From contig NZ_JACHNU010000001.1 in the NCBI RefSeq assembly GCF_014199525.1, forward strand, positions 970,182 to 1,034,181: 64,000 nt of DNA, written 5' to 3'. A program made the position numbers and the translations under genes. The stretch is from Conexibacter arvalis (GTDB taxonomy: Bacteria > Actinomycetota > Thermoleophilia > Solirubrobacterales > Solirubrobacteraceae). The notes below the pieces were generated by a model that worked only from the letters and a program-made list of their open reading frames with translations, had not been told where the DNA came from and did not search any database. Position 1 is the stretch's first letter. Each line of letters opens with the position of its first letter. Positions 46,008 to 63,408 of the stretch are shown here, one piece after another.

Positions 46008-46679
46008 TCAGTCCAGGCCGGTGATGCGGATGCCGGTGTGCGTTCTGTTGCGGATGTTGAGACCGATCAGCAGCGGGGTGAGCGACTCGGCGATCCGGCT
46101 CGCCTCCAGCTTGCCTCCGTCGATCGCGCGCAGCCCGGGTACGAGCGAGAGCAGCTCGATCACCGCAGCCTTCTGCGCTCTGTCGTCGCCGCAGACGAGG
46201 GTGTCCTGATCGAGGGCGCGGTCGAGCCGCTCCAGATCCGCGGCGCTGATCGTGTGCAGGCCCGAGACCACCCCGACGTGCGCCGGCAGCAGCGCGCGCG
46301 CCTGCTGCGCGGCCGAGCCGTGCCAGACCCCCAGCACGTGGGTCGGACGGCCACCGACCGCGGGGGCGAGCGGCACGGTCGCGTCGAGCACGATCTGGCC
46401 CTCTCGCAACGCGGGAGCGATCGATCTCAACGTCGCGGCCTGGCTCGCGAACGGGACCGTCAGCACCACGATCGTGCCCGCGGCCGCGACCGCGTCCTCG
46501 TTGCGGGTGCCGTCGAAGCGGCCGTCGGGGCACGAGGCCGCGGCGCGCTCGGCTGCGGCGCGCGCTCTCGCCTCATCGCGCGAACCGATGGTGACCGGCA
46601 CGCCGACGCTGCCGAGCCGGAGCGCCAGCCCGTAGCCAAGCGCGCCGGTGCCGCCGAGGATCGCCACCTTCTCTGCCAT
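46008..46679 (-). CDS. npdG: NADPH-dependent F420 reductase (F420H2:NADP oxidoreductase)
   Basis: A 223-residue protein. KVAILGGTGALGYGLALRLGSVGVPVTIGSRD binds NADP (GSRD is the phosphate-binding turn); VVLTVPF, DATVPLAPA and LVCGDDRAQKAAVIELLSLVPGLRAIDGG are typical of Fno/NpdG. It moves hydride between NADPH and F420. AAAGGA precedes ATG 46679. It is divergent from the cupin operon; with the LLM-type oxidoreductase at 55620 it implies F420-dependent chemistry in this island. Confidence 0.85.
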   Translation of the reverse strand: MAEKVAILGGTGALGYGLALRLGSVGVPVTIGSRDEARARAAAERAAASCPDGRFDGTRNEDAVAAAGTIVVLTVPFASQAATLRSIAPALREGQIVLDATVPLAPAVGGRPTHVLGVWHGSAAQQARALLPAHVGVVSGLHTISAADLERLDRALDQDTLVCGDDRAQKAAVIELLSLVPGLRAIDGGKLEASRIAESLTPLLIGLNIRNRTHTGIRITGLD

Positions 46680-47025: not shown

Positions 47026-47697
47026 ATGGCCAAACCGGTCGTACGCGCGCATCAGAGAGACATCGACGAGCTCCCGTGGAGGCAGATCGCCGGCGGCTCC
47101 GGGTCGTTCGAGCGCGTCATCGCGCTCGACGAGGCGAACGGTTCCGCGACGCGGTTCCTGAAGCTCGAGCCAGGCGCCTCGCTGCCGGCGGAGCGGCTCG
47201 ACCGCTGGGAGGAGACGTACGTGCTGGAGGGCGCGTTCGAGCGTGACGGGGTCGCGTACCGGGCCGGCTCCTACATCTGCCAGCGGCCGGGCGAGGCGCG
47301 TGCCGCCACCGCCTCGGCCGACGGCGCGCTCGTCTTCCAGCTGCGCGACTTCAACGACGTCCTCGACAAGGAGTCGGTCGCGTGGACCGCGGAGGCGCTC
47401 GAGGCGCTGCCGTGGGAGCGGATCCCCTACCGCGACGACGACTTCGAGCAGAAGGTGCTCTCCCAGGGCCCGTCCGGCTCGCTGACCGCGCTCGGTCGCA
47501 TCGAGGCGGGGGCGCGCACGACCGAGCCCGACCTGCACGACTTCGACGAGGAGGTCCTGATCTTCGACGGCGCGTGCAGCTCGCACCGCGGCGTCTACCG
47601 TGCGGGGACGTACACGTGCATGCCCGCCGGCGCCGAGGACGGTCCGTTCGTGTTCGACGAGCGGCTGACCTGTCTGGAGATCAAGAACTACTCCTAG
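47026..47697 (+). CDS. Bicupin protein (first copy)
   Basis: A 223-residue protein of two cupin repeats. The first has LEPGASLPAERLDRWEETYVLEGAFERDGVAYRAGSY; the second has DLHDFDEEVLIFDGACSSHRGVYRAGTY and ends in EIKNY. Histidines DLHDF and glutamates could bind a metal; the first repeat lacks the usual histidines. It resembles ChrR-type cupins that often act as small-molecule dioxygenases or sensors. A paralog lies at 61504. The ribosome site GGGAGGG precedes ATG 47026. First gene of a two-gene unit with the isochorismatase-type hydrolase. Confidence 0.8.
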   Translation: MAKPVVRAHQRDIDELPWRQIAGGSGSFERVIALDEANGSATRFLKLEPGASLPAERLDRWEETYVLEGAFERDGVAYRAGSYICQRPGEARAATASADGALVFQLRDFNDVLDKESVAWTAEALEALPWERIPYRDDDFEQKVLSQGPSGSLTALGRIEAGARTTEPDLHDFDEEVLIFDGACSSHRGVYRAGTYTCMPAGAEDGPFVFDERLTCLEIKNYS

Positions 47698-48562: not shown

Positions 48563-50017
48563 TCAGCCGGCGGCGCCGTCAGCGATCATCACGTGCTTGA
48601 CGTCGGTGTAGTCGTCGAGCGAGTACGCGCTCATGTCCTTGCCGTAGCCGGACGCCTTGTAGCCGCCGTGCGGCATCTCGGAGACGAGCGGGAGGTGGGT
48701 GTTGACCCACACGCAGCCGGCGTGGATCGCGCGCGAGGCGCGCATCGCGCGGCCGACGTCGGCGGTCCACACCGAGGAGGCGAGGCCGAACGGCGTGTCG
48801 TTGGCGAGCTGCAGCGCCTCCTCCTCGTCGGCGAACGGCTGCACGGTGACGACCGGACCGAAGATCTCCTCTTGGACGACGTCGTCGTCCTGCCGCGCGC
48901 CGGCGAGCACGGTCGGCTCGTAGAACGACCCGTCGGTGAGCGCGTCGGGGACGCGCCCGCCGGTGACGAGCTCGACGTGCGCCGGCCGCTCGTCGACGAA
49001 ACGCGCCACGCGCGCGCGGTGGCCGAGCGAGTTGAGCGGCCCGAGCGTCGTCTCGGGCGCGAGCGTGTCGCCGAGCACGAGCTTGCGCGCCTCGGCGGCG
49101 AGCCCGTCGACGACCTTGTCGTAGACGTCCTTCGCCGCCAGCACGCGCGTCGCCGCGGTGCAGTCCTGCCCGGCGTTGAAGAATGCCGCGGTCGCGAGCC
49201 CGGGAAGCGCCGTCTCCAGGTCGGCGTCGTCGAAGACGATCGCCGGCGCCTTGCCGCCGAGCTCGAGGTGGAGGCGCTTGACGCCGTCCGCGGCGAGCCG
49301 GGCGATGTGCTGCCCGGTCGAGACCGAGCCGGTCAGCGAGACCATCGCGACATCGCGATGCAGCACCAGCGAGTCGCCGATCGCCGAGCCGTGGCCGGCG
49401 ATCACGTTGAGCACGCCGGGCGGCAGCAGCTCGGCGCAGAGGCGACCGAGCGCGAGCGTCGTGACCGGCGTCGTGCGGGCCGGCTTGAGCACGACCGTGT
49501 TGCCGGCCGCGAGCGCCGGGCCGATCTTCCAGACGGCCATCATCAGCGGGTAGTTCCACGGCGCGATCTGGCCGACCACGCCGATCGCTTCGCGCCGAGT
49601 GAACGACGTGTGGCCCGCGAGGTACTCGTCGGCGGCGCGTCCTTCCAGGCAGCGCGCGGCGCCCGCGAAGAAGCGCAGGTTGTCGATCGCCAGCGTGACG
49701 TCCTCCTCCAGCAGCCCGGTGATCGGCTTGCCGGCGTCGAGCGCCTCGAGCCGCGCGAACCGCTCGGCGTCGTCCTCGAGCGCCTGCGCGACCCGCAGCA
49801 GCGCCTCCGCCCGCGCGCGCGGCGTCGCGCCGGACCAGGCGGGGAACGCGGCGCGCGCGGCCGCGACCGCGCGGTCGACGTCGGCCTCCGTCGAGACCGG
49901 CACCGTCGCGATCGCCGCCCCGGTCGCCGGGTTGACGACGGCCTCGGTGCGGTGGTCGGAGGCGGCGGTCAGCTCGCCGCCGACGAGGTTGAGCAGTTCT
50001 TCGGGCACGCTGTGCAT
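48563..50017 (-). CDS. NAD-dependent aldehyde dehydrogenase (aminobutyraldehyde dehydrogenase-like)
   Basis: A 484-residue aldehyde dehydrogenase. IAPWNYPLMMAVWKIGPALAAGN, Glu in LHLELGGKAPAIVF and nucleophilic Cys in FFNAGQDCTAATRVL are in place; CVWVNTHLPLVSEMPHGGYKASGYGKDMS is typical of gamma-aminobutyraldehyde/betaine-aldehyde dehydrogenases. ATG 50017 follows a strong AGGGAGGAA site. It is divergent from the XRE-cupin regulator. In this island it could oxidise an amino-aldehyde formed from the imported amine. Confidence 0.9.
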   Translation of the reverse strand: MHSVPEELLNLVGGELTAASDHRTEAVVNPATGAAIATVPVSTEADVDRAVAAARAAFPAWSGATPRARAEALLRVAQALEDDAERFARLEALDAGKPITGLLEEDVTLAIDNLRFFAGAARCLEGRAADEYLAGHTSFTRREAIGVVGQIAPWNYPLMMAVWKIGPALAAGNTVVLKPARTTPVTTLALGRLCAELLPPGVLNVIAGHGSAIGDSLVLHRDVAMVSLTGSVSTGQHIARLAADGVKRLHLELGGKAPAIVFDDADLETALPGLATAAFFNAGQDCTAATRVLAAKDVYDKVVDGLAAEARKLVLGDTLAPETTLGPLNSLGHRARVARFVDERPAHVELVTGGRVPDALTDGSFYEPTVLAGARQDDDVVQEEIFGPVVTVQPFADEEEALQLANDTPFGLASSVWTADVGRAMRASRAIHAGCVWVNTHLPLVSEMPHGGYKASGYGKDMSAYSLDDYTDVKHVMIADGAAG

Positions 50018-50047
50018 CGATTCCTCCCTTGGTGGGGTCGAGAATTC

Positions 50048-50063
50048 GATGTTACTGAACATC
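50048..50063. promoter_or_regulatory. GATGTT-ACTG-AACATC operator candidate
   Basis: Perfect 6-base arms 31 nt upstream of the aldehyde dehydrogenase start. A second GAACATC occurs at 50101. It is a candidate site for the divergent XRE-cupin regulator. Confidence 0.4.
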
Positions 50064-50199
50064 TGGCCCCATGATTTTCATTCTTATTAAAACATCCCGC
50101 GAACATCTCGGGATCCTGCAGTCCTGCGGTGTTTCGCGTGCACGGCGTGTGCACGCGGATTGAACTTTTCCCGCGTTGTCCCTGGTAGGGTGTCCGAGT

Positions 50200-50835
50200 A
50201 TGGGGGCTGATCGGCAAGCACCAGCGGCATCGGCAGATGGCGCCTCCGAGGACGAGCTCGACGGCGTGCGCCTCGGCGGCCAGCTGCGCGCGATCCGGAC
50301 CGACCAGGGCTTGACGCTGCAGGAGCTGGCGGGGCGCGCCGGCGTCTCGCAGAGCCTGATCTCGCAGGTGGAGCGAGGCATCGCCAGCCCGTCGATCACG
50401 ACGCTGCGGCGGCTTGCCGCCGCGCTCAACGTCCCGATCGCCGCGCTGTTCGTCGAGCACGACCAGGCGGAGAGCAGCGCCGAAGAGCTGGACGGCAAGC
50501 GGATCATCGTCCGAAGAGGCGAACGCAAGGGGCTGCGGGTGCAGCGCTCTCGCGTCGAGTACGAGCTGCTGACGCCCGACCTCAACCGGGCGATCGAGTT
50601 CCTGTGGATCGAGTACGCGCCGCGCTCGCGCACGCATCCGACGCCGATGTCGCATCCGGGCGAGGAGAACGCCGTCTGCATCGAGGGTACGGTCGTCGTC
50701 ACGATCGAGGGGCGCGAGTACGTGCTCGGCCCCGGCGACAGCATCTCGTTCGACAGCGGCCGGCCGCATCAGGTCGAGAACCGCTCGGGCGAGCGGGCGG
50801 TGCTGGTCTCGGCGATCACGCCGCCGTCGTTCTGA
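50200..50835 (+). CDS. XRE-family regulator with C-terminal cupin sensor
   Basis: A 211-residue protein. The HTH is LRAIRTDQGLTLQELAGRAGVSQSLISQVERGIASPSITTLRRLAAALN; the C-terminal cupin has SHPGEENAVCIEGTVVVTIEGREYVLGPGDSISFDSGRPHQVENRS. This architecture (PuuR-, SutR-like) senses small molecules from amine or sulfur metabolism. ATG 50200 lies 8 nt after a -10-like TAGGGT; the mRNA may be leaderless. It is divergent from the aldehyde dehydrogenase and is the only dedicated regulator seen inside the 46-64 kb island. Confidence 0.9.
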   Translation: MGADRQAPAASADGASEDELDGVRLGGQLRAIRTDQGLTLQELAGRAGVSQSLISQVERGIASPSITTLRRLAAALNVPIAALFVEHDQAESSAEELDGKRIIVRRGERKGLRVQRSRVEYELLTPDLNRAIEFLWIEYAPRSRTHPTPMSHPGEENAVCIEGTVVVTIEGREYVLGPGDSISFDSGRPHQVENRSGERAVLVSAITPPSF

Positions 50836-51854: not shown

Positions 51855-51915
51855 GTCTCTACACTCAGCCTTAAGAGAGGCCGTGCCGTCCTGGTCATGG
51901 CGTGAAAGGAGCTAC

Positions 51916-52839
51916 GTGGCTGAGACTGTGGGAGTGATGCCCCCGTGCGTCACCATCTTCGACGAGGGCGGGGCCGTCGACGAGGCGCGCACGAAGGAAC
52001 ACGTCGACTGGTTGCTCGACGCCGGCGTCCACGCGCTGCTGGCACTGGGCACCTGCGGCGAGTTCTTCTCGTTCGAGACCGATGAGCGCGAGCGGCTGGC
52101 GGCGAAGTTCGTCGAGTGGGTCGACGGCCGCGTGCCGCTCTACATCGGCGTGATGGACACGTCGACCGACAAGGCGGTCCGGCTGGCGAAGGCCGCGGAG
52201 GCGGCGGGCGCGACTGGCGTCATGAGCGTCGCCCCGTACTACTCCAGCCCGCCGCGTCGGGAGGTCATGCAGTACTTCCGCGACATCGCCGCGGCGGTCG
52301 ACATCCCGTTCATCGTGTACAACAACCCGCCCGCGTCGGGCGTCTCGCTGGAGACCGCCGACCTCGCAGAGCTGGCCAACGACGGCACCGCGAAGATCGT
52401 CAAGGAGTCGCACGGCGATCCCGCGCGGATCCACGACCTCAAGCTGACCGTTCCCGCCGACGTGCCGGTCCTCTACGGCGAGGACTACGGCGCCTTCGAG
52501 GCGATCTGCGGCGGCGCCGACGGCTGGGTCGCCGGCGTCAGCAACTTCATGCCGCACGAGGCGGTCAAGCTGTGGAACCTCGCCCGGAGCGGCGACCTCG
52601 AGGCGGCGCGCGAGCAGTGGTACCGGATCCTGCCGCTCGTGAACATGACCTCGATCAAGCCGATGTTCGGGCGCCCCGACGAGCGCCCCGACTTCATCCA
52701 GATCTTCAAGGCCGGCCTCGACCGGATCGGGCGCACCGGGGGCCCCTGCCGTCGCCCGCTGCTCCCGCTGCCGCCGGAGGACGTCCACTACCTGCACAGA
52801 CTGATGGACGAGATCGGGCTGACCCCCGTCGCGGCCTGA
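51916..52839 (+). CDS. DapA-family aldolase/lyase
   Basis: A 307-residue TIM-barrel enzyme of the dihydrodipicolinate synthase/N-acetylneuraminate lyase family. The Schiff-base lysine is in AKIVKESHGD and the catalytic tyrosine in FIVYNNPPAS; GTCGEFFSFETDER replaces the usual GTTGE glycine-rich turn. Substrate class (pyruvate aldol addition or cleavage, or decarboxylative keto-acid breakdown) cannot be fixed. GTG 51916 was chosen for the AAAGGAG site; the upstream frame has no ribosome site. It is the first gene of the central operon of the island. Confidence 0.87.
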   Translation: MAETVGVMPPCVTIFDEGGAVDEARTKEHVDWLLDAGVHALLALGTCGEFFSFETDERERLAAKFVEWVDGRVPLYIGVMDTSTDKAVRLAKAAEAAGATGVMSVAPYYSSPPRREVMQYFRDIAAAVDIPFIVYNNPPASGVSLETADLAELANDGTAKIVKESHGDPARIHDLKLTVPADVPVLYGEDYGAFEAICGGADGWVAGVSNFMPHEAVKLWNLARSGDLEAAREQWYRILPLVNMTSIKPMFGRPDERPDFIQIFKAGLDRIGRTGGPCRRPLLPLPPEDVHYLHRLMDEIGLTPVAA

Positions 52840-52876: not shown

Positions 52877-53812
52877 ATGATCGACATCAGAGGCGCATTC
52901 GACTGCCACGTCCACACCGCGCCGTCGCTGTTCGAGCGGCCGTGGACCGCGTTCGAGACGGCCGAGGCCGCGCTCAGACAGGGGATGAAGGGCTTCGTCC
53001 TCAAGCATCACTTCCAGCCCTCGGTCGCCCAGGCGAGCGACGTGCAGAAGGCCTACCCGGAGCTGACGGTCGTCGGCGGCGTCGTGCTGAACCGCTACAC
53101 CGGCGGCCTCAACCCGTACGCGGTCGAGTCGGCGATCAAGATGGGCGGCCGCGTCGTGTGGTTCCCGACGGTCGACGCGAAGAACCACTTCGACTACTTC
53201 GGCACCGCGAGCAGCTACGACGTCAGCGATGCCGGCGACGGCGGCCCGCAGCTGATCGGCGGCAACAAGGGCTTCGAGCGCCTCACGAGCGGCCCGGGCA
53301 TCACCGCGCTGGGCGAGGACGGCGAGCTGCTGCCCGAGGCCAGAGAGATCGTCGACATCTGCGTCCGACACGACGTCGTGCTCGGCACCGCCCACCTCGG
53401 CCGCGAGGAGACCTTTGCCGTCTTCCGCTACGCGGCCTCGAGAAGAGCGAGACGGCTGCTGCTCGGCCATGCGCTGTGGAAGCCGCTCAACCTCTCGCTG
53501 GAGGAGCTGATCGAGATCGCCGACCTGGGCGTGACGATCGAGTTCGCGGCATCGATCTCGCTGCCGATCCCGTGCCACGCGTCGCCGGGGCTGGTCGTCG
53601 AGACGATCAAGGCGATCGGGCCGGAGCGCTGCATTCTCTCCTCCGACGCGGGCGCGGCGGTCTTCCCGATCGTCCCGGAGGCTCTGCGCAGCTACACCCA
53701 GTGCCTCGTCGACACCGGGCTGGACGAGGACGACGCCCACCGGATGCTCGCCGTCAACCCGGTGAGACTGGTGCTCGAGGGCGCACCCACGCCGCAGGGG
53801 AGCAACGGTTGA
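52877..53812 (+). CDS. DUF6282-family amidohydrolase-like protein
   Basis: A 311-residue protein. AFDCHVHTAPSLFERPW resembles the HxH metal site of amidohydrolase-fold enzymes; FVLKHHFQPS, LGTAHLGREET, LLLGHALWKPLN and CILSSDAGAA supply further His/Asp ligands in amidohydrolase order. It probably opens a cyclic amide or hydrolyses an ester. Members of this family are uncharacterised as far as I know. Its stop overlaps the next TTG start; the ribosome site AAGGAGAG precedes ATG 52877. Confidence 0.8.
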   Translation: MIDIRGAFDCHVHTAPSLFERPWTAFETAEAALRQGMKGFVLKHHFQPSVAQASDVQKAYPELTVVGGVVLNRYTGGLNPYAVESAIKMGGRVVWFPTVDAKNHFDYFGTASSYDVSDAGDGGPQLIGGNKGFERLTSGPGITALGEDGELLPEAREIVDICVRHDVVLGTAHLGREETFAVFRYAASRRARRLLLGHALWKPLNLSLEELIEIADLGVTIEFAASISLPIPCHASPGLVVETIKAIGPERCILSSDAGAAVFPIVPEALRSYTQCLVDTGLDEDDAHRMLAVNPVRLVLEGAPTPQGSNG

Positions 53813-54861
53813 CGCCAGCGATCCGCACCGTGCACTGGGGGACCGGGGCGATGGGCAGCCACGCGCTGCGCATCGCCGCGCGGACCCCGGGGCTCGCGGT
53901 CGCCGGCGTCGTCTCGCAGCGTTCGGCCGCCCATGCCGCGGCGACGCTCGCGCGTGAGGCGCCGGGCGCCGCCGGCGCCGTCGCCGGCGACGACCTCGCC
54001 GGGGTCGTCGCCCGCTGCGGCGGCGCGGACGTCGTGCTGCTCGCCACCCACGGCCATCTCGTCGACCTCGAGGCCCAGCTGACGGCCGCCTTCGAGCTCG
54101 GCCTGCGGGTCGTCTGCATCGGCGAGGACGCGATCTACCCCGCGGCCGTCGACGCCGAGCTGGCCCGCCGCCTCGAGCGGCTCGCGCAGCGGCGCGGGGT
54201 GGCGATGGTCGGCACCGGCGCCAACCCCGGCTACGTCATGGACTGGCTGCCGATGGTGCTCACCGCCGCGACCGCCGGCTGGACGAGCATCCGCGTGCGG
54301 CGGGCGAGCAGCCTCGCCCCGTTCGGCGAGACGGTGCTGCGCAGCATGGGCGTCGGCCTCTCGCCCGAGCAGTTCGGGGCTGCCGCGGCCCGCGGCGAGA
54401 TCGACGGCCACGTCGGCTACGGCGCCTCGGTCGCCTTCCTCGCCGCCGGCCTCGGCGTGCCGCTGGAGATCGTCGACGACGTCTGCGAGCCGATCGTGCG
54501 CGAACGCCCGACCGAGCTCGACGGCCACTCCCATCCCGGCGGCGTGGTCGTCGGGGTCGACCAGCGCTGCCGCGCCGTCGCGCCGACGGGGCAGACCGTG
54601 ACGCTCGAGCACCCGCAGCGGCTCGGCCGGCTCGAGGGCGAGGAGCCGCTGCACGACCTGATCGAGATCGACGGCGGCGAACTGCTGCGCGCGCGGATCA
54701 GCCCCGCGCTCGACGGCGGCATCGCGACCGTCGCGCTGATGATCAACCTGATCCCGGCGCTGGTGAACGCCGAGCCGGGAATCCACACCATCGCCAGCCT
54801 GCCGCTCACGCCGTTCCACGCCCCCGCGGCGCAGGGACGGGTCGCGGCAGCCAACGTCTGA
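53809..54861 (+). CDS. Ord-like (2,4-diaminopentanoate dehydrogenase family) dehydrogenase
   Basis: A 350-residue NAD(P)-dependent dehydrogenase. The Rossmann turn is VHWGTGAMGSHALRIAA; GTGANPGYVMDWLPMVLTAA and the C-terminal MINLIPALVNAEPGIHTIASLPL segments match the family of the ornithine-degradation enzyme Ord, which acts on a 2,4-diamino acid. TTG 53809 overlaps the preceding stop (TTGA). It likely oxidises or reductively aminates a diamino- or amino-keto acid. The next gene is a shorter relative. Confidence 0.8.
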   Translation: MTPAIRTVHWGTGAMGSHALRIAARTPGLAVAGVVSQRSAAHAAATLAREAPGAAGAVAGDDLAGVVARCGGADVVLLATHGHLVDLEAQLTAAFELGLRVVCIGEDAIYPAAVDAELARRLERLAQRRGVAMVGTGANPGYVMDWLPMVLTAATAGWTSIRVRRASSLAPFGETVLRSMGVGLSPEQFGAAAARGEIDGHVGYGASVAFLAAGLGVPLEIVDDVCEPIVRERPTELDGHSHPGGVVVGVDQRCRAVAPTGQTVTLEHPQRLGRLEGEEPLHDLIEIDGGELLRARISPALDGGIATVALMINLIPALVNAEPGIHTIASLPLTPFHAPAAQGRVAAANV

Positions 54862-54873
54862 GAGGTGACGCTC

Positions 54874-55623
54874 GTGCCTGCTGTGAGAAGTCGTCGTTCG
54901 GCCGAGGCGGTCGGGACGACGCGGGTCCTCTGCGCCGGGGACGAAGAGACGGGCCGGGCCCTCGCCGCCTCCGTCGCGCGGCACCCCGCGCTCGAGCTGG
55001 CGGCGGTCGTCTCCGCGCGGGATGCCGGCGCGATCGGCGCCGCGGTCGCCGACGCGCGGGCCGCTGTGGCGCTGCTGGCGCCGGCCTCGCCCGCGTCGGC
55101 CTCGGCGCTCGCCGGGGCGGTCGTCGCGGCCGGCGCCTCGGCGGTCGTGCTGCTGCCCGCTCCGGGCTGGCCGGAGGACGAGCTGACACGGCACAACGCC
55201 GCCGCGTCCGCGGCGGGATGCGCGCTCCTGCTGATCGAGGGCGAGGACGCCTTCGTGAGCGACATGCTCCCGGCCGTGCTGGCGATGGCGTGCGTCTCGG
55301 TCGACCGCATCGACGTCAGCCTGCCGGCCGCGGGGCGGCCGGCCCCGGCCGGACCGGGCCCGATGCTCCGCGCGCTGCTGGGCGGCGAGACTGCGCGAGC
55401 GCGCTTCGTGACGGCGGAGAGCGCGCCGCCGAGCGCGCGGATATCGATCGTCGGCGACGGCGACATCGAGTTCACGATGGAGGGCGAGGCGATCCGCGAC
55501 GGTGGTCGCGCCGGGCTGATGGTCAACGCGATCCCCGCGCTGCTGGAGGCCAGACCGGGCGTCCACCGCCTGGTGGAGCTGCCGCTCCCGCACGCGTGGT
55601 CTTCCGCGGGAGGTGCGGCGTGA
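54874..55623 (+). CDS. Short Ord-like paralog
   Basis: About 249 residues from GTG 54874 (AGGTGA site 3 nt upstream); GTG 54865 is an alternative. The N-terminus TTRVLCAGDEETGRALAASVA is a weak Rossmann start lacking a clean GxGxxG. The middle is shorter than in its neighbour, and the C-terminal MVNAIPALLEARPGVHRLVELPL repeats the same motif as the 53809 product. It may be a regulatory or structural partner, forming a heteromer with the full-length enzyme. Function unproven. Confidence 0.65.
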   Translation: MPAVRSRRSAEAVGTTRVLCAGDEETGRALAASVARHPALELAAVVSARDAGAIGAAVADARAAVALLAPASPASASALAGAVVAAGASAVVLLPAPGWPEDELTRHNAAASAAGCALLLIEGEDAFVSDMLPAVLAMACVSVDRIDVSLPAAGRPAPAGPGPMLRALLGGETARARFVTAESAPPSARISIVGDGDIEFTMEGEAIRDGGRAGLMVNAIPALLEARPGVHRLVELPLPHAWSSAGGAA

Positions 55624-56621
55624 GCTTCGACGTCGGCGTGCAGGTCTTCCCCGGACAGCCGCGGGACGCGGTCGCCGAGGCGATCGCCTACGAGCGACTG
55701 GGGATCTCGTCGGTGTGGATCGCCGACCACTTCCACGGCGCCGGCCGCGACACGAGCTGGATCGTCCCGGAGGTGTTCACGACGCTCGGCGCGGTCGCCG
55801 CCTCGACGGAGACGCTGCGGTTCGGCACCTGCGTCGTCTCGACGACGAAGCGCGATCCGGCGGTGCTCGCGCACGGAGCGCTGACGCTCTCCTCGCTCTC
55901 CGGCGGGCGCTTCGAGCTCGGCCTCGGGACCGGCTTCGGACCCGACCTGCACGCCTTCGGCATCCCGACCAGAGCAGCCGTCTCGCGACTGGAGGAGTCG
56001 CTGGAGGTCGTGCGCGGGCTGTTCGCGTCGAGCCCCGAGCGGCCGTTCGACCACGACGGCAGACGGTGGCAGCTCAGCGGCGCCTTCCTGAACCTGCCGG
56101 GCGCGGCCGCGCCGCCGGTGTCGCTGGCGGCGATCGGCCCCCGCATGCTCGAGCTCGCCGCGACGCGGGCCGACGGCTGGCTCCCGTTCGGGCTGACGCC
56201 TGACATCTACCGCGCCTTCCTCGACCGCATGGCGCCGCGCTCAGCCGCGTTCAGAGCGCGGCTGTGGGTGCCGACCTTCGTCGAGGAGCCGGGCGAGGAC
56301 CGCTCGGCGGAGGCTGAGGCGAGCGGCCGGCTCTATCTGTCGATGGCGCCGCAGGTGCTCGAGCACGCGCTCGGGGCGGAGGCCGGCGGGAGCGCCGGGA
56401 GCTCGCTGGCGTGGTCGCCGGAGCGCGGCAGGGAGATCGCGCGGGCGATCCCGCGCGAGCTGGCGCTCGCGGTCACCGTCCACGGCCCGCCGGAGCGCTG
56501 CGTCGAGCAGCTGCGCGCCTTCGAGGCCGCCGGCTGCGACGGCGTCGTGCTGCGGATCACCGATCCGACCCGGCGCCGCGGCGACGTCGAGCGCCTCGCG
56601 CAGGCGCTTCAGAGCGCCTGA
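55620..56621 (+). CDS. LLM-class flavin/F420-dependent oxidoreductase
   Basis: A 333-residue luciferase-like TIM barrel. ERLGISSVWIADHFHG, TTLGAVAASTETLRFGTCV, LSSLSGGRFELGLGTGFGPDLHAFG and SLEVVRGLF are typical of F420-dependent (MER, FGD-like) and FMN-dependent members; I cannot separate the two by eye. npdG at 46008 supports F420. GTG 55620 overlaps the preceding stop. The C-terminus contains ERCVEQLRAFEAAGCDGVVLR. It probably oxidises or reduces an intermediate of the pathway. Confidence 0.85.
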   Translation: MSFDVGVQVFPGQPRDAVAEAIAYERLGISSVWIADHFHGAGRDTSWIVPEVFTTLGAVAASTETLRFGTCVVSTTKRDPAVLAHGALTLSSLSGGRFELGLGTGFGPDLHAFGIPTRAAVSRLEESLEVVRGLFASSPERPFDHDGRRWQLSGAFLNLPGAAAPPVSLAAIGPRMLELAATRADGWLPFGLTPDIYRAFLDRMAPRSAAFRARLWVPTFVEEPGEDRSAEAEASGRLYLSMAPQVLEHALGAEAGGSAGSSLAWSPERGREIARAIPRELALAVTVHGPPERCVEQLRAFEAAGCDGVVLRITDPTRRRGDVERLAQALQSA

Positions 56622-56751: not shown

Positions 56752-57873
56752 ATGGAGACCATGTCCGAGATCGATCGAGGCAGCGGGTATTCAGGCCAGA
56801 CGCGGCGCGAGCTCCTTGTCAAGGGAGGCGGCGCGCTGTTCGGGCTCAGCACCGTCGGCGCGCTGCTGGGCGCCTGCGGCGGGAGCGGCGGCGAGAGCAG
56901 CGGCGCCGGCAGCAGGTTGAGCAGATTCATCCTCGCCGACTGGGGCGGCAACACGGCGAGAATCCGCCGTGACACGTGGGGGCGAGCCTTCACCGAGCGC
57001 ACGGGCCTGTCGGTCGCCAGCACGGCGCTCGACTACGGCAAGTTCCGGGCCCAGGTGGAGAGCGGCAACGTCAGCTGGAACTGGCTCGACGCCGAGGGCT
57101 GGTTCGCGCTCGGCAACGAGGACCTGTTCGAGGAGATCCCCTACGACACGCTCGGCATAACCGAGAGAGACGTCCTCCCGGTGCCCAACGCCTTCACGCC
57201 GAAGGCCGTGATGTCGTACCACAGCTGCTACGCGATCGGGCACAAGACCGACGGCGACCTCAAGCCGCCGGAGGACTGGGTCGAGTTCTTCGACACCAAG
57301 GCGGTGCCGGGCAAGCGGAGCCTCTTCAACTGGCCGTACGGCACCGTCGAGATCGCGCTGATCGCCGACGGCGTCCCCTACGACGAGCTCTATCCGCTCG
57401 ATCTCGACCGGGCGTTCAGAAAGATCGACTCGATCCGCGACGACGTCGTCTTCTACAACTCCGGCGCGGAATCCCAGCAGCTGCTCGTCAGCGGCTCGGT
57501 CGACTTCGTCCAGGCGTGGCACAACCGCATCGGCAGCGCCGCCAAGCTGGGCTCGCCGGTCGACCTGCGCTGGGGGCAGAACCTCCAGATCGTCACGCAC
57601 CACACGATCTCCAAGCACCAGAAGGACCCCGACGCCTGCGTCGAGTTCATCAGAACGGCGCTGTCGCCCGAGCCGCTGGCCGAGTACGCGAGAGCGTCGC
57701 TCAACGCGCCGCCGACGCAGGCGGCCTACGACCTGCTCGACGAGGAGACCAGACGCTGGATGTCGACCAATCCCGCGCATCTGGAGCTGTCGGTCGGCGT
57801 GATCGACGATCGCTGGTGGGGCGAGAACCTCGACCGGGTCTCGAGAGCGTGGACGGAGTGGATCGGGGCGTAG
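56752..57873 (+). CDS. Polyamine-type ABC transporter substrate-binding lipoprotein
   Basis: A 373-residue family 1 (PotD/PotF-like) binding protein. The signal has TRRELLVKGGGALFGLS, a twin-arginine motif, and lipobox LLGAC, so it is probably a Tat-exported lipoprotein. RFILADWGGNTARIRRDTW and GAESQQLLVSGSVDFVQAWHN match spermidine/putrescine and opine-type binding proteins; the ligand is likely a cationic amine or guanidino compound. ATG 56752 follows GAAAGG; ATG 56761 is an alternative. Eight of about 27 arginines are AGA codons. Confidence 0.85.
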   Translation: METMSEIDRGSGYSGQTRRELLVKGGGALFGLSTVGALLGACGGSGGESSGAGSRLSRFILADWGGNTARIRRDTWGRAFTERTGLSVASTALDYGKFRAQVESGNVSWNWLDAEGWFALGNEDLFEEIPYDTLGITERDVLPVPNAFTPKAVMSYHSCYAIGHKTDGDLKPPEDWVEFFDTKAVPGKRSLFNWPYGTVEIALIADGVPYDELYPLDLDRAFRKIDSIRDDVVFYNSGAESQQLLVSGSVDFVQAWHNRIGSAAKLGSPVDLRWGQNLQIVTHHTISKHQKDPDACVEFIRTALSPEPLAEYARASLNAPPTQAAYDLLDEETRRWMSTNPAHLELSVGVIDDRWWGENLDRVSRAWTEWIGA

Positions 57874-57896
57874 GCCCCGGCCCGGGACGACGACCG

Positions 57897-58724
57897 ATGC
57901 GACCGATGCTCCGCGTCGAGAAACTGCTGCTGCCGGCGCTGGGGCTCGTCGCCCTCGCCTTCGTCTATCCGGCGGCCGAGCTGCTCGGACGCTCGTTCAC
58001 CGAGCCGCCGGGAGGCTTCTCCCATTACCAGGACGTCTTCGGCAGCTCCTCGCTGATGACGATCGTCGGGCGCAGCGCGCTGACGGCGGCGTTGGTGATG
58101 GCGGTCTCGCTGCTGCTCGGCTTCCCGGTCGCGTGGCTCGCGGCCAACTCCTCGCCGCGCGTCGCGAAGCTGATCCTCGGCGTCGTCGCGGCGTCGCTGT
58201 TCGTCAGCGTCATCGTCCGCGGCTACTCCTGGCTGGCGATCCTCGACCGCAACGGCGTCCTCAACACCGTGCTCGGGGCGATCGGGCTGGAGAGCATGCA
58301 GCGGACGTTGGTCCACAACAGAGCCGGCGTCGTGATCGGCATGTCCCAGTACGGGATCCCATTCATGATCCTGCCGCTCTACGACGTGATGAGCCGCTTC
58401 GACAACCGCCTGCTGGCCGCGTCGGCCAACCTCGGCGCGCGGCAGTGGACGACCTTCTGGCGCGTCTACGTGCCGCTGATCCTCCCCGGGATCGGCGCGG
58501 GCTGCACGATCGTCTTCATCGCCACGCTCGGCTACTACGTGCTGCCGTCGATCCTCGGCGGGCCGGGCGACGTGATGATCGGCGAGCTGATCGCCGACAA
58601 GATCCAGACGACCGGCGACTGGGGCCAGGGGACGGCGCTGGCCAGCGTGCTGCTCGCCGTCGCGCTGCTGTTCTTCGTCGCCTTCTACCGCTTCAGCCTC
58701 CGCGGCAGGGAGGGGTCGTCGTGA
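57897..58724 (+). CDS. Polyamine-type ABC transporter permease (PotB-like)
   Basis: A 275-residue membrane protein with six predicted helices: LLLPALGLVALAFVYPAAELLGRSF, an EAA loop at ASANLGARQWTTFWRVYVPLILPGI, and TLGYYVLPSILGG. It forms the first half of the pore. ATG 57897 and ATG 57906 are both possible; the gap from the binding-protein stop is 23 nt. Confidence 0.9.
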   Translation: MRPMLRVEKLLLPALGLVALAFVYPAAELLGRSFTEPPGGFSHYQDVFGSSSLMTIVGRSALTAALVMAVSLLLGFPVAWLAANSSPRVAKLILGVVAASLFVSVIVRGYSWLAILDRNGVLNTVLGAIGLESMQRTLVHNRAGVVIGMSQYGIPFMILPLYDVMSRFDNRLLAASANLGARQWTTFWRVYVPLILPGIGAGCTIVFIATLGYYVLPSILGGPGDVMIGELIADKIQTTGDWGQGTALASVLLAVALLFFVAFYRFSLRGREGSS

Positions 58725-59578
58725 CGATGCGCCGATGCGTGCAGGCGCTCGTGGTCGCGATCCTGCTCTTCCTCGTCACGCCGGTGCTCGTCGTCATCCC
58801 GATGGCCTTCAGCTCCAGCGCCTTCCTGGAGTTCCCGCCGCCGGGCTGGACGACCGAGTGGTTCGCCGAGTTCTTCCGCGACCCCGACTGGATCGACGCC
58901 CTGACGCTGAGCCTGCGCGTCGCGGGCGGGGCGATGGTCCTCTCGCTCACCGTGGGGACCGCCGCCGCCTACGCGCTGGTCCGCCGCGGCGTCCGCTTCC
59001 GCGGCGCGACGCAGGGCTTCCTGACGCTGCCGATCGTGATGCCGACGATCGTCTACGCCGTCGGCGCCTACCTCGTCGCACTGAAGCTCGGGCTGGTCGG
59101 CTCCGAGCTGCTGCTGATGTGCGCCCACGCCGTCCTGGCGCTGCCGTTCGTCCTGCTCAACGTAACCGCGAGCCTCCAGACGATCGACCAGCGGCTGGAG
59201 CTGGTCGCGCAGAGCATGGGCGCGCGGCCGTGGACGGCCTTCCGCAGCGTCACGCTGCCGTTGATCGCGCCGGCGCTGATCGCCAGCGCGCTGATCGCCG
59301 TCGTGATCTCGCTCGACGAGACGGTCGTGGCGCTGTTCCTCACCGAGGACACGAGACCGACCCTGCCGGTGAAGGTCTACAACAGCATCCGGTACGACCT
59401 CAACGCGGTGGTGCCGGCGGCCGCGGCGGTCGTCCTCGCCGGGACGGTCGCGATCGCGGCGGCGCTCGGGCTCGTGCGGTGGGTCATCGCCCGCGCGACC
59501 GGGATGCGCGCCGGCGCGCCCGCCGGCGACGGCGTCGAGATCGGCGCCGGCGAGCCCGAGACGGGAGGAGCACGATGA
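58721..59578 (+). CDS. Polyamine-type ABC transporter permease (PotC-like)
   Basis: A 285-residue membrane protein: ALVVAILLFLVTPVLVVIPMAFSSSAFLEFPPPGWTTEWFAEFF is the PotC-type N-terminus; EAA loop at LVAQSMGARPWTAFRSVTLPLIAPA. GTG 58721 overlaps the upstream stop and follows GGGAGGGG; ATG 58727 is an alternative. Its stop overlaps the ATPase ATG. Confidence 0.9.
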   Translation: MTMRRCVQALVVAILLFLVTPVLVVIPMAFSSSAFLEFPPPGWTTEWFAEFFRDPDWIDALTLSLRVAGGAMVLSLTVGTAAAYALVRRGVRFRGATQGFLTLPIVMPTIVYAVGAYLVALKLGLVGSELLLMCAHAVLALPFVLLNVTASLQTIDQRLELVAQSMGARPWTAFRSVTLPLIAPALIASALIAVVISLDETVVALFLTEDTRPTLPVKVYNSIRYDLNAVVPAAAAVVLAGTVAIAAALGLVRWVIARATGMRAGAPAGDGVEIGAGEPETGGAR

Positions 59579-60735
59579 GCCTGCAGAGCAGCGCAGTGAG
59601 GAGTGAAGCGATGCGACAGCCGGCGACGGCGGACGCGAACCGTGGGGCGATCGGCCTGGAGCAGGTCGCCAAGTCGTTCAAGGGCGCCGTCGCGGTCGAT
59701 GTCGTCGACATCGACATCCGCCCGGGGGAGTTCGTCACCCTGCTGGGCGAGAGCGGCTGCGGCAAGACGACGACGCTGCTGCTGATCGCGGGCTTCCACG
59801 CGCCGACCTCCGGCCGCGTGACGCTCGACGGCCGCGACGTCACGAGACTGCCGCCGTACGAGCGCAACCTCGGGATGGTCTTCCAGAACTACGCGCTGTT
59901 CCCGCACATGACCGTGGAGGAGAACATCGCCTACCCGCTCAAGCGGCGCAAGCTCGGCCGCGGCGAGATCGCCGCGAAGGTCGCGCGCTCGCTGGAGCTG
60001 GTCGGCCTGGCCGGCTACGGGAAGCGGCACCCGCGCGAGCTCTCCGGCGGGCAGCAGCAGCGCGTCGCCGTCGCGCGGGCGACCGTCTTCGACCCGCCGG
60101 CGCTGCTGATGGACGAGCCGTTGAGCGCGCTCGACCGCAAGCTGCGGCAGTCGCTGCAGGACGAGATCCGTCAGATCCACCGGCAACTCGGCACGACGGT
60201 CGTCTACGTCACCCACGACCAGGACGAGGCGCTGGCGATGAGCGACCGGATCGCGTTGATGCGCGGCGGGCGGATCGAGCAGATCGGCAGCCCGACCGAC
60301 GTCTACCGCCGGCCGCGGACGCTGTTCGCCGCCGCCTTCCTCGGCGACGCCAACCTGCTGCGGGGGAGGGTCGTCTCCAGCGCCGGGGGCACGGCGGTCG
60401 TCGAGCTGCGCTCCGGGACGAGGGTCGGTGCGCTCGCCGATCCCGAGATCGCCGCCGGGAGGGAGGTGACGGTCGTCGTGCGGCCGGAGCACCTGCGCCC
60501 GGCCGACGCCTCGGCGCCCGGCGGCGCGGCGGTCCGCGCGACCGTCGAGGACGTGACGTACCTCGGCCGCAGCATCTGCTGCACCGGCTCCTTCGAGAGC
60601 GGCGACCGCTGCATCGTGCCGATCGAGACCTCGGGCGCGACGGAGTTCCCGCGCGTCGGCGACACGCTCCACCTCAGTTGGGAGGCGTCGCTCGCGACCC
60701 TCGTCGCCGACGTCGACGACCACGACGGAAGGTGA
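59575..60735 (+). CDS. Polyamine-type ABC transporter ATP-binding protein (PotA-like)
   Basis: A 386-residue ATPase: Walker A GESGCGKTTT, signature LSGGQQQR, Walker B LLMDEPLSALD, switch His in VYVTHDQDEAL; a C-terminal TOBE regulatory domain (VVRPEHLRP, VEDVTYLGRS). It completes the four-gene importer. ATGA overlap with the preceding permease. Confidence 0.92.
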   Translation: MSLQSSAVRSEAMRQPATADANRGAIGLEQVAKSFKGAVAVDVVDIDIRPGEFVTLLGESGCGKTTTLLLIAGFHAPTSGRVTLDGRDVTRLPPYERNLGMVFQNYALFPHMTVEENIAYPLKRRKLGRGEIAAKVARSLELVGLAGYGKRHPRELSGGQQQRVAVARATVFDPPALLMDEPLSALDRKLRQSLQDEIRQIHRQLGTTVVYVTHDQDEALAMSDRIALMRGGRIEQIGSPTDVYRRPRTLFAAAFLGDANLLRGRVVSSAGGTAVVELRSGTRVGALADPEIAAGREVTVVVRPEHLRPADASAPGGAAVRATVEDVTYLGRSICCTGSFESGDRCIVPIETSGATEFPRVGDTLHLSWEASLATLVADVDDHDGR

Positions 60736-61503: not shown

Positions 61504-62184
61504 ATGGCAAAGAAGCTGGTTCGCCTCTACCCGCAGGACATCGAGCGGATGGAGTGGGTCGCGGCCGCCGACGGAGGCCGCGAGCGCGTCGTCGCGAGCG
61601 ACGGCGACGGCTCGGTGACGCGGTTCCACCGCCTGGACGCGGGCGAGCGCCGGGCGGCGCGGCCCGAGGAGCGCTGGCACGAGGTCTTCGTGCTGGAGGG
61701 ATCGTTCGAGGAGGACGGCGTCCGCTACGAGGCGGGGAGCTACCTCTGCCTCCCGCCGGGCGCGCGGCGCGGGGAGGTCACCTCCGCGGAGGGGGTGCTG
61801 AGCATCGAGGCGCTCGACCACCACGATCGTCTCGACAAGCCGGAGCGGCGGCTGACCGCCGCCGAGGTCGAGGCGCTGCCCTGGCAGGCGGCCGAGAGCG
61901 GCCAGCCCGGCTTCCGCGAGAAGTTCCTGGCGCGCGACGAACGCGGCTCGCTCACCCGCCTGCTCGACGTCGGGCTCGACGGCAACACGGTCGAGCTCGA
62001 CGACCACGACCACGACGAGGAGGTCCTGATCGTGCGCGGCGCGTGCCGCAACGGCGAGGAGCTGCACCCGGCCGGGACCTACACCTTCAACCCCCCGCAC
62101 GCCGTCCACGGCCCGTTCGACATCTACGAGCCGCTGCTCTGCTACGAGATCAAGAACGTCCCCCGCAGCGAGGACCTGCGATGA
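61504..62184 (+). CDS. Bicupin protein (second copy)
   Basis: A 226-residue protein paralogous to the 47026 product. First repeat: ERWHEVFVLEGSFEEDGVRYEAGSYLCLPPG; second repeat: DDHDHDEEVLIVRGACRNGEELHPAGTYTFNPPHAVHGPF, ending in YEIKN. It carries more histidines (RWHEV, DDHDHD, PPHAVHG) than its paralog, so it is the likelier metalloenzyme of the two. AGGAGG precedes ATG 61504. It overlaps the first DUF1989 gene by ATGA. Confidence 0.8.
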   Translation: MAKKLVRLYPQDIERMEWVAAADGGRERVVASDGDGSVTRFHRLDAGERRAARPEERWHEVFVLEGSFEEDGVRYEAGSYLCLPPGARRGEVTSAEGVLSIEALDHHDRLDKPERRLTAAEVEALPWQAAESGQPGFREKFLARDERGSLTRLLDVGLDGNTVELDDHDHDEEVLIVRGACRNGEELHPAGTYTFNPPHAVHGPFDIYEPLLCYEIKNVPRSEDLR

Positions 62185-62825
62185 GGCAGGACGTGCTGCT
62201 CGAACCGCGGTCGTACACCGCGTCGGAGGTCGAGGTCGGGGAGTCGCTGCGCATCACCGTCGTCGACGGTCAGCAGGTGCCCGACATCGTCCTGTGGGCG
62301 CGGGAGGACGCCGGCGAGCGGCTGTCGCCCACCGCGTCGCAGCTGCTCAACGGCAGCCACCTGATGGTGCCGGGATGCGTCCTCTACTCCCACCGCGCGT
62401 CCGGGCTGGCCCGGGTCGACGCATGCACCGCGGGCGCCGGGGTGATCGTCGGCGGCTCCTGCAGCGCGCCCCTCAACTACGCCCGCTTCGGCATCCCCGA
62501 CACGCCGAACTGCCGCAGCAACCTGCTTGCCGCCGGCGCGCCGTACGGCGTCGAGGAGGCCGACGTGCAGCACATCTACTGCCCCTTCATGACGATCCGT
62601 CGCGACGACGACGGGAGCTACGTGATCGACCTTCCCGAGGCGGAGCCGGGGGACTACGTCGAGCTGGCGGCGCTGGTCGACCTCGTGGTCCTGACCTCCA
62701 ACTGCCCGCAGGAGCGCACTCCGACCAACGCATTCAACCCGTCGCGCCTGCACCTCTGGGTCGGTCCCTCCGACGCGTCCCGGCCGACGCTCGACGCGAT
62801 CGTCGCGGAGGCCGCCCATGCCTGA
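62181..62825 (+). CDS. DUF1989 (urea carboxylase-associated) protein, first subunit
   Basis: A 214-residue protein of the UAAP/DUF1989 family. GQQVPDIVLWARED, LNGSHLMVPGCVLYSH, GVIVGGSCSAPLNYARFG, YCPFMTI and LTSNCPQERTPTNAFNPSRLHLW match the family; NCPQE holds its conserved cysteine. DUF1989 pairs are known as carboxyguanidine deiminase (CgdA/CgdB), which works after guanidine carboxylase. No carboxylase gene is present here, so the substrate may be another carbamoyl/amidino compound. It overlaps both neighbours. Confidence 0.82.
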   Translation: MRQDVLLEPRSYTASEVEVGESLRITVVDGQQVPDIVLWAREDAGERLSPTASQLLNGSHLMVPGCVLYSHRASGLARVDACTAGAGVIVGGSCSAPLNYARFGIPDTPNCRSNLLAAGAPYGVEEADVQHIYCPFMTIRRDDDGSYVIDLPEAEPGDYVELAALVDLVVLTSNCPQERTPTNAFNPSRLHLWVGPSDASRPTLDAIVAEAAHA

Positions 62826-63408
62826 CGTCACGCTGACAGCCGGCAGCGCGGCCGCGATCTCGCTGTCGCCGGGCGACGCCCTCAGCGTCCGCGCGATCGT
62901 CGCCGGTCAGGTCGCCGAGCTGGTTGCCCACAGCGCCGCCGATCCGCGCGAGCGGCTCTCGACGCTGCTGACCGGGCTGGCCGAGGAGGCCCACACGCTG
63001 CGCGAGGGGATGACCCTCTGGAGCCAGGAGTACCGCCCGCTGCTCCGCGTCGAGGAGCTGACCAACGACGAGCACGACCTCGCCCTGGAGGCGTGCACGC
63101 CGTGGCTCGGCCGCGCGCTCGGAGCGGAGCTGGTCGGCGACTGCTGCTGGACGAGCTTCCGCGCGTGGCTGGAGGGCGAGGGGCTGCCGGAGAAGTGGGT
63201 GCCGTATCCGGTCGGGATCTTCAAGCGCGCCGACGAGCGCGACGGGCGCTACGGCCTGCGCCCGGGCTCCAGCAGACCGGGCGACCTCGTCCGCTTCAGC
63301 GCCGCGAGCGCCTGCACGGTGCTCGTCTCCGCCTGCCCCCTGACCCGGGGCGCCGCCGATCCGGCCGCGCCCGTCATCGAGGTGACATGGAATGAACAGA
63401 ACAGTTGA
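62818..63408 (+). CDS. DUF1989 (urea carboxylase-associated) protein, second subunit
   Basis: A 196-residue paralog of the preceding protein. MTLWSQEYRPLLRVEEL, ACTPWLGRALGAELVGDCCWTSFRAWL, WVPYPVGIFKR and VLVSACPLTRG parallel its family; SACPL is the conserved cysteine region. A two-gene pair with heterodimer-type divergence fits CgdA/CgdB or UAAP1/UAAP2. ATG 62818 overlaps the upstream stop by 8 nt, and its end overlaps the following small gene by 17 nt. Confidence 0.78.
   Translation: MPDVTLTAGSAAAISLSPGDALSVRAIVAGQVAELVAHSAADPRERLSTLLTGLAEEAHTLREGMTLWSQEYRPLLRVEELTNDEHDLALEACTPWLGRALGAELVGDCCWTSFRAWLEGEGLPEKWVPYPVGIFKRADERDGRYGLRPGSSRPGDLVRFSAASACTVLVSACPLTRGAADPAAPVIEVTWNEQNS

Follow-up and report, generated by a model that had tools for sequence, protein, structure and literature searches.

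A 64,000-nucleotide stretch of Conexibacter arvalis (contig NZ_JACHNU010000001.1, positions 970,182 to 1,034,181), referred to here as the window, contains two adjacent, related genes at 53809-55623, as a preliminary description of the sequence had stated. The first, LONG (53809-54861, + strand, TTG start), encodes a 350-residue enzyme that resembles native amine dehydrogenases and 2,4-diaminopentanoate dehydrogenases. The second, SHORT (54874-55623, + strand, GTG start), encodes a relative of 249 residues that has kept the Rossmann module and lost most of the substrate domain. Our preferred reading, to which we give about even credence, is that SHORT, a Rossmann-only member of the native amine dehydrogenase family, is maintained as a pseudoenzyme that probably binds LONG and stabilises or regulates it.

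Against PF19328 (DAP_DH_C), LONG scores 141.1 bits (E 4.7e-41; curated cut-off 23.3), with model positions 1-193 out of 206 aligned. Its best solved relatives are 7xdu (E 2.9e-53) and 6g1h/6g1m, the amine dehydrogenase of Petrotoga mobilis (E 1.1e-42); some solved relatives labelled reductases in the sequence search carry the title amine dehydrogenase. Glu106 and the glycine-rich loop G11-x-G13-x-x-G16 (GTGAMG) are present, as they are in six more distant relatives, which were aligned with the three known LONG proteins (alignment A5). The residue equivalent to Glu106 in MATOUAmDH2, Glu111, is described as catalytic in PMC9325545. LONG has the appearance of an ordinary native amine dehydrogenase.

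The label "Ord-like" given in the preliminary description is a loose one. The equivalog model of 2,4-diaminopentanoate dehydrogenase (Ord), NF040740, is matched over positions 1-329 of 335, but with 230 bits against a cut-off of 400. The ornithine aminomutase alpha domain (OAM_alpha, PF16552) was found in none of the three pair-bearing genomes (90-99% complete); of three other genomes in which a gene matches PF19328 strongly, two were positive in the same search. By genome, G528 and G535 were positive and G439 and G385 negative. By this sub-cut-off score and the lack of OAM_alpha matches in the three genomes, LONG is not a strict Ord, and ornithine fermentation is unsupported as the pathway. 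Locus L020 of G385, a genome of the same order in which OAM_alpha was not found, holds a full-length Ord-like dehydrogenase (53-1336, +) facing a gene (1480-2754, -) that we take to be similar to a pyridoxal phosphate (PLP) threonine synthase relative, reminiscent of ortB. For this domain, PMC11164908 considers the 2,4-diaminopentanoate dehydrogenase label misleading.

SHORT also exceeds the PF19328 cut-off of 23.3, scoring 32.4 bits (E 9.2e-08), with the match limited to model positions 143-197; all three known SHORT proteins match the model. Pairwise BLASTP of LONG and SHORT (E 4e-07) aligned little beyond the C-terminal motif, which SHORT had correctly been said to keep. In a profile-profile comparison, SHORT residues 15-248 were aligned with nearly all of LONG, with an internal deletion (98.1% probability, E 6.4e-14); because the alignment spans nearly the whole of LONG, the homology is full length. 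Both Rossmann pieces are retained, including the C-terminal segment that returns to the Rossmann domain. In the solved amine dehydrogenase of PMC9325545, a dimer of one chain type, a sheet domain of seven strands (residues 159-309) is inserted into the Rossmann domain, which is thereby split into residues 8-158 and 309-351. The span that holds this sheet domain comprises 41 residues in SHORT versus 102-129 in all 47 full-length family rows. These rows were the three LONG proteins and 44 loci kept from 79 with E <= 1e-10 (21 pair loci and 14 duplicates were dropped, and a 280-residue length filter removed none).

The nucleotide-loop turn, GTGAMG in LONG, reads GDEETG, GDAETG and GESETG in the three SHORT proteins. 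The "degraded turn" of the preliminary description is therefore real, but the reduction goes further, as all three proteins have lost the loop bearing Glu106 together with the greater part of the sheet domain. G13 is replaced by E, A or S, a position occupied by glycine in 47 of 47 full-length rows. The residues N139-P140-G141 (GxNPG motif) are replaced and HPQ is also lost; D145, N313, P316 and G324 are retained. A5 has 52 invariant positions; the three SHORT proteins all retain 14 of them, do not all retain another 20 and have the remaining 18 deleted, with the alignment of the SHORT proteins being loose in the linker. A Pfam scan of SHORT revealed no DNA-binding or other added domain. With no nucleotide loop, no catalytic glutamate and little of the substrate domain, SHORT is, by its residues, very probably non-catalytic.

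SHORT is nevertheless maintained by purifying selection, acting on two Rossmann-forming blocks. The ratio of nonsynonymous to synonymous substitution rates (dN/dS) of the whole gene is 0.43-0.51, a value matched by 0 of 300 neutral simulations in each of the three genome pairs. In the Rossmann block (residues 15-148) dN/dS is 0.33-0.57 (reached by 0, 0 and 1 of 300 neutral copies), and in the C-terminal return segment (188-249) it is 0.18-0.20 (0 of 300 for each pair), against neutral medians of 1.08-1.26. The linker between them (149-187), at 0.94-1.42, is indistinguishable from neutral, with 196, 73 and 192 of 300 neutral copies as low, and it coincides with the former position of the sheet domain. 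Since constraint is limited to the two folded blocks, it outlines a Rossmann module in which a free linker has replaced the catalytic domain.

LONG and SHORT lie head to tail in the same frame, with a single TGA separating them and a 12-nucleotide intergenic gap (54862-54873, + strand) that contains a ribosome-binding site. Both this site, GAGGTG, and SHORT's GTG start are unchanged across the three genomes. The start of LONG overlaps the stop of the gene immediately upstream, for a DUF6282/amidohydrolase-like protein (52877-53812, +; PF19799, E 4.1e-64), and the stop of SHORT overlaps the start of a gene for a luciferase-like (LLM) oxidoreductase (55620-56621, +, GTG start; PF00296, E 1.1e-55). 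Because of these overlaps, the DUF6282-LONG-SHORT-LLM set would form one operon, in which LONG and SHORT may be translated together. The order DHDPS-DUF6282-LONG-SHORT-LLM, followed by a short-chain dehydrogenase/reductase (SDR) gene and two DUF1989 genes, is common to all three genomes.

SHORT was found intact at the same place in three of seven Conexibacter genomes, and an orthologue of LONG in the same three, which belong to related soil-type bacteria. The two relatives' LONG proteins are 88 and 89% identical to that of the window. Loss or decay of SHORT where LONG persists, named in the preliminary description as a possible refutation, was looked for and did not turn up: pair and order are retained in all three genomes found with a LONG orthologue. 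The conservation is narrow, being confined to one genus. Of the other four Conexibacter genomes, G003 has LONG matches of 30 and 27% identity and three have none; further matches among 101 genomes did not exceed 36%, and the next relatives of LONG in 396 genomes of the phylum (E <= 1e-30) are 30-36% identical.

Wider searches, in which only a limited set of first-look candidates is scored for each genome (hence "none" means none found), gave the same distribution for SHORT. A profile search of 146 genomes of the family retrieved only the three pair-bearing genomes. A single-protein search of 399 genomes of the class, G004 not being among those drawn, gave matches in 14 genomes at E <= 0.001. 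Those in the window's own genome and in G005 were full-length SHORT proteins; the remaining 12 were partial (E 8.6e-06 to 7.9e-04), L020, a full-length dehydrogenase, being one of them. In 396 genomes of the phylum the profile gave 19 matches at E <= 0.01, with only SHORT itself full length and the best partial match (E 1.2e-07) in a 387-residue frame. No SHORT was found on plasmids, and the search of genome contigs gave two loci, in two Conexibacter genomes already carrying the pair. No relative of LONG was found among viral contigs with its profile. When 102 loci were scanned with both profiles, 21 had two matching open reading frames, all of them this place in the three genomes, 65 had one and 16 had none. 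At the 65 loci, several of which cover the same gene, no reduced neighbour was found within the flanks covered, which were some 1.5 kb long and shorter near contig ends. In another genome of the phylum (G476, contig C1, 3191220-3192711), two PF19328 matches stand directly in tandem on one strand, in frames of 436 and 387 residues, neither of them reduced.

An AlphaFold model of SHORT, built from the three-row alignment, has a mean predicted local distance difference test (pLDDT) score of 53.4 and a predicted template modelling (pTM) score of 0.53. The Rossmann core (residues 11-120) is modelled at block pLDDT values of 60-89, and the chain after about residue 120 at 25-50; because of these low values, how the C-terminal block packs is taken from the sequence and from solved relatives. 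In a VIA-align comparison with 1000 chains the best matches of the model were DapB reductases (Z up to 17.6), and the P. mobilis amine dehydrogenase 6g1m reached Z 15.0 over 134 aligned residues (model residues 15-217). Scores of about 14 are reached by receiver domains too, whose alpha/beta arrangement is similar. A match in fold is therefore no proof of kinship by itself; the proof comes from the sequence profile.

Under our preferred reading, LONG would carry out the redox chemistry, and SHORT, encoded 12 bases behind it, would bind LONG or LONG's oligomer through the Rossmann module and so stabilise or regulate it in a pathway that breaks down a nitrogen compound. The partner role is our best guess because SHORT stands directly behind LONG and has two conserved blocks, by analogy with MetCaCb (see below).

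Several observations weigh against this reading. Amine dehydrogenase dimers pack through the sheet domain, which serves as the dimer platform, and SHORT is without most of it; a conventional mixed dimer of LONG and SHORT is for this reason less likely than another kind of contact, and one through the Rossmann side of LONG, or with a further protein, would be more plausible. Of the 47 full-length family rows, no more than 20 have the catalytic glutamate and 27 lack it, so its loss in SHORT proves little alone; greater weight falls on the altered glycine of the loop and on the missing domain. SHORT is the fastest evolving of ten cluster genes compared: eight neighbours have dN/dS values of 0.11-0.24, and an EamA gene, a flawed row with a stop in one of three sequences, has 0.26-0.38. 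SHORT and LONG stand apart in the best tree, and the pair is known from one genus and three genomes only. Finally, there is no direct sign of contact, the fold of a fused LONG-SHORT read-through chain being too poor to use (mean pLDDT 45.2, pTM 0.35). Of the catalytic plus non-catalytic heteromer proposed in the preliminary description, the division between a LONG with loop and glutamate and a SHORT with neither stands, the two occurring together in all three genomes; the heteromer itself is a putative one. Tentatively, and with less than even confidence, SHORT could be an obligate Rossmann-only subunit of a two-component amine dehydrogenase, with a contact surface other than the usual dimer sheet.

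The loss of the dimer platform, which makes the usual amine dehydrogenase contact unlikely, is also what would be expected if SHORT were a separate ligand-binding or regulatory Rossmann protein, for example an amine or nucleotide sensor, that makes no contact with LONG; selection to retain the Rossmann module and the C-terminal block fits this as well. We consider such a role rather unlikely, given the 12-nucleotide spacing and the conserved position behind LONG, the broken dinucleotide loop, the lack of a Pfam DNA-binding or other added domain, and the presence in the cluster of another regulator, a helix-turn-helix (HTH)-cupin protein (50176-50835).

More improbable still is a catalytic or nucleotide-binding activity of SHORT's own, with an altered loop and substrate site. 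In favour of it, stretches that are new in the SHORT proteins, such as ETGR and EGEAIRDGGRA, are invariant in all three. Other chemistry in the family is possible, since the 27 full-length rows mentioned above lack the catalytic glutamate and family group G5 is described in PMC11164908 as mainly lacking it. Against such an activity, the second loop glycine varies between E, A and S among the SHORT proteins, so the site itself is not conserved. SHORT is also missing the bulk of the sheet domain, the loops of which close over the active site in MATOUAmDH2 (PMC9325545).

A functionless duplicate in decay would account for both the fast evolution of SHORT and its lost catalytic residues. This explanation is largely refuted, and we regard it as very improbable. 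The three SHORT genes differ at 154-170 of 744-747 bases without a stop or frameshift, whereas 180-208 of 300 neutral copies gained a stop; the observed dN/dS lies below that of every neutral simulation, and only the two folded blocks are under constraint. SHORT as a pseudogene is rejected on the same grounds. Stop-codon read-through, which would yield a single LONG-SHORT protein carrying two Rossmann modules, is hardly credible, for although the shared frame, the single TGA and the identical junction (TGAGAGGTGACG) in the three genomes would suit it, the ribosome-binding site and GTG start just behind explain the junction, and the same frame is expected by chance in one case out of three.

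The origin of SHORT was addressed with a tree of 234 columns, of which those in the linker are loosely aligned. In the best tree the SHORT proteins join other relatives, L035 and L083 (ultrafast bootstrap 69), so SHORT need not derive from a duplication of LONG itself; forcing SHORT together with LONG was not rejected (approximately unbiased (AU) test, p 0.191). With these values, a recent tandem duplication of LONG is not shown. A histidine at position 326 occurs only in LONG, SHORT, L020 and L010 (8 of 50 rows), which weakly hints at kinship.

The cluster around the pair includes a DHDPS/aldolase-family enzyme (51883-52839, +; PF00701, E 3.4e-55), an aldehyde dehydrogenase (48563-50062, -), two ChrR-type cupins, one at each cluster end (47026-47697 and 61504-62184, +), and, at the end of the cluster, two adjacent DUF1989 genes (62193-62825 and 62818-63408, +). 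In the window LLM and SDR are separated by an ABC transporter (56752-60735, +), and SDR and DUF1989 by the second cupin; in the two relatives LLM, SDR and DUF1989 stand next to one another with neither insertion. The relatives' best transporter matches (31-47% identical) lie beyond the DUF1989 genes, a few kb further downstream, which gives the impression of a different uptake system. For the second cupin, the relatives offer only the orthologue of the first (43-45%), with no space between SDR and DUF1989. The aldehyde dehydrogenase has an orthologue in G004 (89%), and none was found within the 40 kb of G005 searched. A PF03807 (F420-dependent NADP oxidoreductase) match lies at 46008-46679 (-), and the best NCBIfam models for the LLM oxidoreductase are F420-dependent, all below their cut-offs; judged from these two genes, F420 chemistry in the cluster is possible. 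The two DUF1989 proteins share 26% identity in an arrangement that recalls the carboxyguanidine deiminase CgdAB, so that the question of active and inactive subunits comes up again within the cluster.

In the literature on native amine dehydrogenases, diaminopentanoate dehydrogenase, carboxyguanidine deiminase or DUF1989, and pseudoenzyme heteromers, with few subscription journals covered, we did not find such a pair, and the same search yielded nothing on Conexibacter with amine dehydrogenase or on DUF6282. A pseudoenzyme beside its enzyme is already known; the new element is a putative partner that, among amine dehydrogenases, has been stripped of a domain and left with the Rossmann module only. 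If our preferred reading is true, the pair would be a clean test case of a pseudoenzyme subunit arising by loss of the catalytic domain. Amine dehydrogenases are wanted for the production of chiral amines, and a paired partner might then be a lever on stability or specificity.

Compared with known systems, LONG matches the native amine dehydrogenases AmDH4 (6g1m, P. mobilis), CfusAmDH (6iau) and MsmeAmDH (6iaq) over nearly the whole length and, like members of this group including MATOUAmDH2 (7r09), has the catalytic glutamate and the glycine-rich loop; its likeness to Ord extends along the model but stays below the cut-off. SHORT has the same Rossmann module and C-terminal return segment as these enzymes and, unlike them, lacks the glutamate loop, the middle loop glycine and most of the sheet domain. 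The closest parallel in organisation is offered by MetCaCb, CgdAB (DUF1989) and DnhAB, which, according to PMC11271267, likewise combine an active and an inactive homologue in the catabolism of nitrogen compounds. The same text names CgdAB among enzymes with inactive cognates and describes each MetCaCb subunit as inactive alone, one of them having lost its metal site. Fold and chemistry are unrelated to those of LONG and SHORT, and the complex is proven for MetCaCb and would have to be assumed here. An intact and an inactivated homologue in conserved adjacency, as in MetCaCb, are found in all three genomes with a LONG orthologue, with the difference that MetCb, as described there, lost metal binding and not a domain, whereas SHORT lost a domain.

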